64,000 nucleotides of DNA from Luteimonas rhizosphaericola. Lineage in GTDB: Bacteria; Pseudomonadota; Gammaproteobacteria; Xanthomonadales; Xanthomonadaceae. Location: the NCBI RefSeq assembly GCF_029888045.1, contig NZ_JARXRN010000028.1:163924-227923 (forward strand), given 5' to 3'. Each line of letters starts with the position of its first letter. Position 1 is the stretch's first letter. Position numbers and translations under genes: made by a program. The notes under the pieces were generated by a model that saw nothing but the letters and a program-made list of their open reading frames with translations, ran no database searches and was not told where the DNA came from. This document shows positions 18,975-21,664 of the stretch, piece by piece.

Positions 18975-20279
18975 TTATTCGACCCGCGCGGGATAGGCGC
19001 GCGGCAGGGCGCCGGCCTCGGGCGCCGGCGCCGCGCGCAGGTAGCGGTCGCGCAACTCGGTCTGGCGCGAACGCATCGGGATCGCGCGCCCGCCCAGCCA
19101 GACCTGCTCGGCCACATGGGCGACATCCAGCGGATCGCCGGTCCACAGCGCCAGGTCCGCGGTCTGGCCGACCGCGATCGTGCCGAGCCGGTCGCCGAGC
19201 CCGAAGGCCTGCGCCGGCACCCGCGTCAGGCCCGCCAGCCCGGCCTCCCACGGCAGCCCGTTGGCGACCGCGTTGCCCGCCAGCTGCCGCACCTTGCGCG
19301 CGTTGTGCGAGGCATCGCCCGACTGGGTGAAGCCCACCCGCACGCCGGCCGCATGCAGGCGCGCGGCGTTCTCGAGCGTGGCGCCCAGGCGGTCGAAGTT
19401 GCCCGGCAGGTTCACCAGCGGGTCGATGAACACCGGCACGTCGGCGGCGGCGAGTTCGCGGCCCAGCTTCCAGGCCTCGGCGCCGCCGGCGATGGCGATG
19501 CGCACGCCGTGCGCGCGCGACCAGCGCAGCAGCTGGCGGATGTCCGCGGCACGGTCGATCTCCACCACGACCCGGCCGCCGCCGTCGAGGTAGCGCTTGA
19601 GCGTCGTTCGGCCGGCGGGCGTGAGCAGGGCGAAGTTCGAATCCGCCGGCAGGCGTCCGCGCGCCTCGTCGACCAGCTGGTCGAGCAGCATCCACTGGCC
19701 CGCGCGCGAGGACCCGCTGAGGTTCGACGCGCCCGCGCCGAGCGCCACGAACAGCACCTTCGGACCTGCCGGGTCCGGGCTGCCGTCCAGGCGCACCACC
19801 GCGCCCTGGCCGCCGATGATCGAACCGCCCGACACCGTGCCGGCGCTGAGCAGGGTGAAGCCGATGCCCTCCACCCGCGCCACCGGCAGCAGGATCGACT
19901 CCGGGTTGTAGGCCAGGGTCACGTCGAACTCGGGGCGGACGGTGATGTCCTTGGCGTTCTCGCCCAGCGCCAGCGAGGCGTCCCGGGTCGAGGCTTCGCC
20001 CGAGACCTCCTCGATGCCGATCCCGGTGATGCCGCCGAACAGCGCCGGCGTGAGCGGGCGTCCGCCGGCATCCACCTCGGCCACGCCGGCCGCGGACAGC
20101 CCGCTGCCGATCGCGGCGATGCGGCCGCCGCGCACCAGCACGTCGTGCGCCTGCAGGGTGCCGCGCTCGGATGCGGTGTGGACGGTGGCGTTGCGGATCA
20201 GCACGTCCTGCGCGAACGCGGGCGCGGCGCAGAGCGCGGCCGCGAGGGTCGTGGCCAGCACGGCGAGACGACGGCTCAT
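18975..20279 (-). CDS. Exported amidohydrolase-like protein lacking the metal-binding HxH
   Basis: A 434-residue periplasmic protein of the imidazolonepropionase-like amidohydrolase family, with a signal peptide (MSRRLAVLATTLAAALCAAP, cleaved after AFA). The fold is recognisable: DVLIRNATVHTASERG at the start and LGTIAVGQTADLALWTGDP near the end. Where active members carry a D-x-H-x-H motif after the TPGL-type strand, this one reads LTPALFGGITGIG (residues 77-87), so the first two metal ligands are absent. It overlaps the gene upstream, an intact homologue, by four bases (ATGA). It may be a non-catalytic partner subunit or use another mechanism. Confidence 0.85.
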   Translation of the reverse strand: MSRRLAVLATTLAAALCAAPAFAQDVLIRNATVHTASERGTLQAHDVLVRGGRIAAIGSGLSAAGVAEVDAGGRPLTPALFGGITGIGIEEVSGEASTRDASLALGENAKDITVRPEFDVTLAYNPESILLPVARVEGIGFTLLSAGTVSGGSIIGGQGAVVRLDGSPDPAGPKVLFVALGAGASNLSGSSRAGQWMLLDQLVDEARGRLPADSNFALLTPAGRTTLKRYLDGGGRVVVEIDRAADIRQLLRWSRAHGVRIAIAGGAEAWKLGRELAAADVPVFIDPLVNLPGNFDRLGATLENAARLHAAGVRVGFTQSGDASHNARKVRQLAGNAVANGLPWEAGLAGLTRVPAQAFGLGDRLGTIAVGQTADLALWTGDPLDVAHVAEQVWLGGRAIPMRSRQTELRDRYLRAAPAPEAGALPRAYPARVE

Positions 20280-21664
20280 CGGGCACCTCCGGCCGCGGCG
20301 GTCGGCTGGCCGAGCATGAAGTCCGTGGTCGGCCGCAGCCTCGGGTCGGCGCGGTCGTACAGGCGCGCGCCGTCGATGTACACCTGCTCGGCATGCGCGT
20401 AGACGGTGAACGGATTGCCGTTCCACAGCACCACGTCGGCCATCTTGCCGGCCTCCAGGGTGCCGGTGACGTCGAGCACGCCCAGCGACTTCGCCGCGTT
20501 CTGGGTGATCCAGCGGATCGCGCGCTCGGGCGCGATCTCGATCCCCACCCGGCGTGCGTTGGCCATCACCTTGGCCGCTTCCTGGTTGAGGCGCTGGATG
20601 CCCTCGTCCGAGTCCGAATGCACGATCGCGCAGCCGTTCGGCGCGCGGTCGACGATCGCGATGTTCTCCTGGATGCCGTCGAAGGCCTCCATCTTGAAGC
20701 CCCACCAGTCGGCCCACAGCGCGCCGCAGACGCCGTCGGCGGCGAGCCGGTCGGCCAGCTTGTAGGCCTCCACGCCGTGGTGGAAGGCGGCGACCTTGAA
20801 GTCGAACTCCTTCGCCAGGTCGAGCATCTGCGCCATCTCGTCGGCGCGGTAGCAGTGGATGTGCACCAGGATGTCGCCGGCCATGGCGCCGGCGAGCGTG
20901 TCGAGCTTGAGGTCGCGCTTGCCCGAGCCGTCCTTCTCGCGCTTCTTCGCGTAGTCCTGCGCGTCGATGAACGCGGCGCGGTAGCCGGCGACGTTGCCCA
21001 TGCGCGTGGAGGGACCGCCCTTCTGGCCGTACACGCGCTTGGGGTTCTCGCCGCAGGCCATCTTCAGCCCGTGCGGCGCGCCGGGGAACTTCATGCCCTG
21101 CGCGGTGGTGGCGGCGACGTTCTTGAGCGTCACCCCGCGCCCGCCGACCAGGTTGGCCGAACCCGGAAGGATCTGCAGCGCGGTCACGCCACCGGCGAGC
21201 GCGGCGCCGAAGCCCGGGTCCTGCGGCCACACCGAATGCTCGGCCCAGACCTGGGCGGTGACCGGCGCGGTGGCCTCGTTGCCGTCGCTGTGCGCGCTGG
21301 CGCCGGGACTGGGATACACGCCCAGGTGCGAGTGCACGTCGATCAGGCCGGGCGTGACCCACTTGCCGCGACCGTCCACGCGCACCACGTCGCTGCCGGC
21401 GGTCAGCCCGCTGCCGACCGCGGCGATGCGGCCGTCCTGCATCAGCACGTCCGCCCCCTCCAGCCGGCGGCCGTCGCCGGTGAGTACGGTGGCGCCGGTG
21501 ATCAGCACCGGCGGCGCGGCGATCGCGCGGTAGGTGCTGGCATAGGGCTCCTGGCCGGAGCCGGGGCGCGCCTCGGCGGCGGGCGGCGGCGTGTCGCCGC
21601 CGCCGGTACTGGCGCAGCCGGCAAGCAGGGCCGCGCACAGCGCGGCGGTCAAGGGTCGAAGCAT
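20276..21664 (-). CDS. Amidohydrolase, imidazolonepropionase-like lipoprotein
   Basis: A 462-residue metal-dependent hydrolase. It begins with a lipoprotein signal (MLRPLTAALCAALLAGC, Cys17) chosen over an ATG 31 codons upstream. The metal site is intact: VTPGLIDVHSHLG with His111 and His113, HIHCYRADEM, AAFHHGVEA and the aspartate in VHSDSDEG. These exported amidohydrolases are thought to act on peptides or cyclic amides, but the substrate is unknown. It is the first gene of a two-gene operon with the degenerate homologue at 18975, coupled by an ATGA overlap. Confidence 0.9.
   Translation of the reverse strand: MLRPLTAALCAALLAGCASTGGGDTPPPAAEARPGSGQEPYASTYRAIAAPPVLITGATVLTGDGRRLEGADVLMQDGRIAAVGSGLTAGSDVVRVDGRGKWVTPGLIDVHSHLGVYPSPGASAHSDGNEATAPVTAQVWAEHSVWPQDPGFGAALAGGVTALQILPGSANLVGGRGVTLKNVAATTAQGMKFPGAPHGLKMACGENPKRVYGQKGGPSTRMGNVAGYRAAFIDAQDYAKKREKDGSGKRDLKLDTLAGAMAGDILVHIHCYRADEMAQMLDLAKEFDFKVAAFHHGVEAYKLADRLAADGVCGALWADWWGFKMEAFDGIQENIAIVDRAPNGCAIVHSDSDEGIQRLNQEAAKVMANARRVGIEIAPERAIRWITQNAAKSLGVLDVTGTLEAGKMADVVLWNGNPFTVYAHAEQVYIDGARLYDRADPRLRPTTDFMLGQPTAAAGGAR

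Follow-up and report, generated by a model that had tools for sequence, protein, structure and literature searches.

We propose that two overlapping genes of Luteimonas rhizosphaericola, here called A and B, probably encode the two subunits of one exported hetero-oligomeric amidohydrolase, in which A is the catalytic subunit and B would bind to it as a dedicated pseudoenzyme paralogue. The genes lie in a window of 64,000 nt, by which we mean the whole stretch of DNA that was analyzed (contig NZ_JARXRN010000028.1, positions 163,924 to 227,923). Widely differing bacteria retain the two genes as a pair, at times fused into one, suggesting that the dead copy takes part in the work of the enzyme. 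The original prediction had proposed a heteromer from the retention of a degenerate partner; co-retention across genomes and the fusion of A to B now support this proposal, and a physical association of the two proteins would be in keeping with both.

The features of the locus are collected in Table 1.

Table 1. Features of the A and B genes, in window coordinates
Feature	Position	Strand	Basis
Gene A, amidohydrolase with complete metal site, 462 aa	20276..21664	-	reading frame, alignment, match to 3OOQ
Gene B, degenerate amidohydrolase without metal ligands, 434 aa	18975..20279	-	alignment, model, fold search
A residues 1-17, lipoprotein-type signal sequence with lipobox LAGC	21614..21664	-	by eye
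B residues 1-23, cleavable export signal ending APAFA/QD	20211..20279	-	by eye
A codons H111-S112-H113 (HxH motif)	21326..21334	-	alignment
B codons 84-86 (I-T-G) at the HxH point	20022..20030	-	alignment
GGAGGT, Shine-Dalgarno-like, inside the end of A, 5 nt ahead of the ATG of B	20285..20290	-	direct reading
ATGA, 4-base overlap of A stop and B start	20276..20279	-	direct reading

The two proteins share 112 identities over 401 aligned columns (28%, E 3e-17). The predicted four-base gene overlap was read directly as ATGA, and together with the GGAGGT just ahead of the B start it makes A and B look translationally coupled. Signal peptides had been described as kept in both proteins; both do carry one, but the kind differs, with a lipobox-type signal on A and a cleavable one on B. 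Judged from these two signals, both proteins are probably exported. When the signal type was assigned for 52 A genes that start a chain, 18 were scored as lipobox, 27 as cleavable-like and 7 as neither, by a crude heuristic under which at least one ‘cleavable-like’ A shows a lipobox by eye. Consequently, we do not claim lipid anchoring of A for the whole family. Inspected by eye, the downstream neighbor (17798-18700, minus strand) is presumably a DegV-family protein and the divergent neighbor (21772-22548, plus strand) is one that we take to be an AMP nucleosidase; neither points to a substrate.

In an alignment with relatives, A has the VHSH motif (H111 and H113) and also E206, H270, H296 and D351, so that the motif and all further ligands ascribed to it are indeed present. 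By comparison with the amidohydrolase superfamily, we take H111, H113, H270, H296 and D351 to be metal-site residues. At the VHSH point B reads PALFGGITG, which contains the predicted LFGGITG, and it has A, E, G and G at the positions of E206, H270, H296 and D351 of A. None of the five H/D ligands is kept, and the loss is wider than had been claimed, extending to the whole metal site. The HxH motif, two further His and the Asp of a catalytic member are therefore all found in A and are missing from B.

Frequent loss of B in relatives, which would speak against a heteromer, was looked for and not seen: the genomes with A are the same as those with B throughout the window's family and phylum, and almost the same in two further phyla. 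In the family both genes occur in the same 105 of 119 genomes, and the same 14 lack both, the pair being absent as a pair. In a sample of the window's phylum both occur in the same 36 of 299 genomes and are adjacent by coordinates in all 36. The two genes are on one strand in all 49 family and phylum loci where both were found, and where one genome (G246) carries a second copy of A, this copy has its own B (L075). Two loci with B only (L037 and L164) end, by contig or stretch, where A is expected. Of 199 Acidobacteriota genomes, matches to A (E 1e-100) were obtained in 93 and to B (E 1e-70) in 94; 91 had a match to both and five to one only. Inspection of these five revealed both genes in four, with a weaker B adjoining A in G536 and G603 and an A cut by the contig end in G531 and G519, while G591 was ambiguous, as the gene accompanying its A has nearly equal scores for A and B (184 and 182 bits). 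Sampling of the Flavobacterium glaciei phylum (118 genomes) gave 71 genomes with A and 70 with B, which are the same genomes except G626, where a search at E 1e-65 revealed no B. The B profile can also be reached by A-like proteins, and some rows of the B list fall on A places (e.g. G573:C51); a separate B place was present in each low-scoring genome when checked by eye. The co-retention expected of an enzyme-pseudoenzyme hetero-oligomer is thus observed, the exceptions being G626, whose A is truncated, and the ambiguous G591.

Linkage of the two genes is close in most genomes. B lies beside A or in the chain of A in 75 of the best 80 named loci listed, and in the other five (L089, L095, L120, L125 and L134) it is found elsewhere in the genome at E 2e-82 to 1e-109. 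Of the 70 genomes of the Flavobacterium phylum, 8 have B at a distance from A or on a separate contig, as judged by eye, and there it is retained although unlinked. The best 80 named loci listed include Idiomarina, Alishewanella, Hymenobacter, Flavobacterium, Planctomycetota, Ignavibacteria, Zixibacteria, Acidobacteria, Opitutaceae and Eisenbacteria, and B-bearing loci belong to at least seven named phyla.

We also compared the arrangement of the genes. A second dead barrel, N, is often fused ahead of A: in 76 of the best 80 named loci listed, one chain holds N in its first half and A in its second, while in the rest N is a separate gene (L143) or the contig starts inside the chain (three loci). 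A and B share one open reading frame in 14 Acidobacteriota loci (L143, L166-L174 and L178-L181), in which N is a separate gene, before A-B in 11 and after it in 3. These 14 fusions do not give a rate, the 20 regions having been chosen partly for long frames; the best 80 named loci listed include one (L143). Domain coordinates give the order N + A-B in L180 and L181 and A + B in L056 and L165, and L182 has three separate genes. Five arrangements were seen in all: A + B, N-A + B, N + A-B, A-B + N and N + A + B, where a plus sign separates genes and a hyphen joins fused parts. Gene orders that vary in this way around one live and one or two dead barrels are a classical sign of parts acting together, and the fusion of A to B in one frame supports subunits that are used together. 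Since N joins the set in most of the best 80 named loci listed, the A + B pair of the window is the smallest form of this system of one live and one or two dead barrels. In G626 (L192:2953-9501), N and a truncated A of about 267 profile positions were observed in a frame of more than 2000 residues. A model of a fused N-A protein (L059) had a pLDDT of 65.8, which is too low for reading an interface. In this low-confidence model a run of strands lies between the N barrel and A (L059:3347-3613, residues about 464-552), possibly an extra beta domain.

Both the co-retention and the fusions also fit two proteins that act successively in one pathway. B could then be an exported protein in its own right, either an enzyme or a binding protein, with a newly acquired function that needs no metal in the pathway of A, for example capture of the substrate or product of A. 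It has conserved polar positions of its own (E91, D100 and R328), it is under purifying selection, and the 5 of the best 80 named loci listed and 8 of 70 Flavobacterium-phylum genomes in which it stands away from A are in line with such a role. We nevertheless consider it unlikely, because the two proteins share one open frame in 14 loci and because genomes with one gene alone are almost absent, a tighter association than expected for mere pathway partners. Among the 15 largest clusters the flanking genes show only clade-wise synteny, which also argues against an independent B.

The state of the metal site was examined across the collected loci in order to compare the subunits, with L159 and L161 (the same places as L165 and L166) and domains of <100 bits or <300 residues left out of the domain count. 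In the window's family and phylum (50 loci), all five H/D residues are present in 50 of 51 A rows; the remaining one (L055_A2) is a partial match with gaps at most ligand columns. Over all collected loci, H111, H113, H270, H296 and D351 are kept in 151 of 160 domains scored as A. Of the nine exceptions, one (L077_A2) is actually the B of its locus, L077, and carries an insertion, and eight belong to a side subfamily (L175, L183 and L184) described below. In a third subtype the active subunit has Thr for E206 and keeps the H/D ligands (L034:3422-5895 and L075:4210-6698). The dead barrels differ clearly from A: none of the five ligands is kept in 70 of the 146 B domains, one in 62 and two in 14, and for the 104 N domains the corresponding numbers are 80, 19 and 5. 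At three loci of the window's phylum (L070:3170-4732, L077:4918-6219 and L078:2943-4319) the match to the B profile is split in two, suggesting an insertion.

Other metal ligands in B had been named as evidence that would count against a structural or regulatory role. A search across the 146 B domains found at most two of the five ligands in any row and both His of the HxH pair in none. A B that is itself an active hydrolase, using a different, migrated metal or catalytic site, is in our view very improbable. H270 is indeed kept in 70 of 146 rows, but H296 is replaced by Gly in 128 of 146, the HxH pair is never present, and no conserved set of His, Cys, Asp or Glu offers an obvious replacement site. 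Of the polar positions shared by at least 85% of B rows, the sole His is H34, in a strand before the barrel, and the sole acids are E91, D100 and D382. E91 (140/146), D100 (141/146) and R328 (140/146) are near-invariant, as are N125 and R135. Judged from the alignment, these conserved polar residues do not look like a replacement metal site.

The prediction that B keeps the fold agrees with an AlphaFold2 model of the window protein (pLDDT 88.1, pTM 0.86), in which the barrel with its flanking beta domain is predicted. Searched against solved structures, this model matched 3OOQ best (Z 44.7, rmsd 2.9, 363 residues), followed by the next entry at Z 26.0. The same structure is the best solved relative of both proteins by sequence (E 2e-63 for A and 2.6e-22 for B). 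Pfam PF01979 and PF07969 (cut-offs 25 and 29.7 bits) are both passed by A (43.9 and 52 bits) and by B (38.4 and 41.5 bits), the best-matched stretches being the C-terminal parts only. Neither protein reached the cut-off of the Xaa-Pro dipeptidase NCBIfam model NF051886 (A 58.3 and B 25.8 bits against 500) or that of imidazolonepropionase HutI, TIGR01224 (A 50 and B 21 bits against 298.15). With its ligands absent and the same barrel confidently predicted, B is by sequence a pseudoenzyme rather than a damaged protein.

A tree was built from 93 domains; in it the A domains group together (SH-aLRT 99), as do the N domains (SH-aLRT 100). On the midpoint-drawn tree B needs two changes, so that it may have had one origin or more. 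Subtypes of A and of B mirror each other. The distances of A and B are correlated, with coefficients of 0.87 for the 41 loci that lack N and 0.88 for the 98 that have it, and 0 of 300 permutations were as high; L077 and L175 were also left out of this analysis, and the correlation is partly species history. The nearest A and the nearest B are both of the locus's own type in 127 of 142 loci. Three comparisons of dN/dS gave 0.29-0.44 for B and 0.34-0.43 for A, indicating purifying selection, these being rough values by NG86 on GC-rich codons. Tandem position and 28% identity might bring to mind a recent, decaying duplicate of A kept by chance, but the chance of this is negligible given that B occurs in loci of at least seven named phyla, branches deeply and separately from A, is under purifying selection and is retained across genomes.

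Genes for A-like proteins also occur singly. Records of Acetoanaerobium (2.6 Mb), Cytobacillus (0.69 Mb) and Monoglobus (0.18 Mb) each hold one A-like gene, by eye without a signal peptide, and no second A/B-type match was found in these records, of which only that of Acetoanaerobium is of chromosome size. An A-like gene of Nonomuraea has no partner within 4 kb. The lone A-like proteins reach the B profile at E 1e-56 to 1e-78. Their existence implies that the fold can work alone. It also suggests that a single cytosolic enzyme is the older state and that the dead partner is a companion of the exported form, a direction that we infer. In the Acidobacteriota side subfamily, an HxH barrel is found beside, or fused (835-844 aa) with, a dead one (L175:2170-9867, L183:1866-4519 and L184:2720-5251). 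Since all of these domains fall within the A branch, a live and a dead barrel may have become paired on more than one occasion.

We believe that the enzyme-pseudoenzyme pair would function as follows. In the envelope, A would carry the metal and cleave an amide bond. B, translated along with A from one mRNA, would join it as a non-catalytic subunit, replacing a second protomer, and may be needed for the assembly, stability, substrate gating or regulation of A. According to the alignment, E91, D100, N125, R135 and R328 of B may lie near loops on the catalytic side of the barrel; judged from sequence alone, they could face A or fill the empty site of B. A periplasmic peptide or N-acyl amino acid as substrate is a weak guess from distant cog1228 relatives. 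The chances seem to us evenly balanced that an exported system across several diderm phyla unites one catalytic and two dead barrels (N, A and B) in one complex, with the dead barrels shaping or gating the active site of A and the pair of the window as a reduced two-barrel form.

Profile libraries give A and B the same general amidohydrolase label, with the risk that A is expressed alone and B is assayed as an enzyme. Should B be obligatory, A by itself may show little or no activity. The five arrangements offer a natural series for how an enzyme acquires dead partner subunits, with single-gene Bacillota relatives for comparison. In the part of the open-access literature searched, itself a part of all literature, we found no description of an amidohydrolase that is exported and accompanied, in several phyla, by one or two dead barrels paralogous to it, and no mention of 3OOQ in part of the matching articles. 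One candidate for a description of this pair was rejected, as PMC13081902 concerns another amidohydrolase.

Among known systems, 3OOQ, an amidohydrolase of Thermotoga maritima, resembles A in its HxH and GENPKRVYG stretches. It is known as a single protein, whereas A putatively works beside B; its matched region starts at residue 6-7, which would leave no room for an export signal, while A and B carry one each. The cog1228 prolidases/carboxypeptidases (3FEQ, 3MKV, 3MTW and 3BE7) share the superfamily and overall fold but match far more weakly than 3OOQ (Z 24-26 to the B model), and they are not known to be paired with a dead paralogue. Dead amidohydrolase barrels serve as subunits in the CRMP proteins. 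Enzymes that are paired with a dead paralogue have precedents, and pseudo-dihydroorotase (pDHO) already provides an example of a dead amidohydrolase barrel as a subunit. In Trypanosoma, AdoMetDC forms a functional complex with a catalytically dead paralogue, the prozyme (PMC5201418). A and B likewise combine an active enzyme with a dead paralogue, their complex being putative, but AdoMetDC is a eukaryotic enzyme of another family, and the A and B pair spans bacterial phyla and includes gene fusions. The closest functional precedent is the ATCase of Pseudomonas aeruginosa, in which pDHO is inactive yet obligatory for the activity of its partner (PMC7053772). There, too, an inactive amidohydrolase-type barrel is a subunit, obligatory in pDHO and proposed to be a subunit in B; the active partner of pDHO is a transcarbamoylase, whereas B would partner an active paralogue that has its own fold, and A and B are probably both exported.
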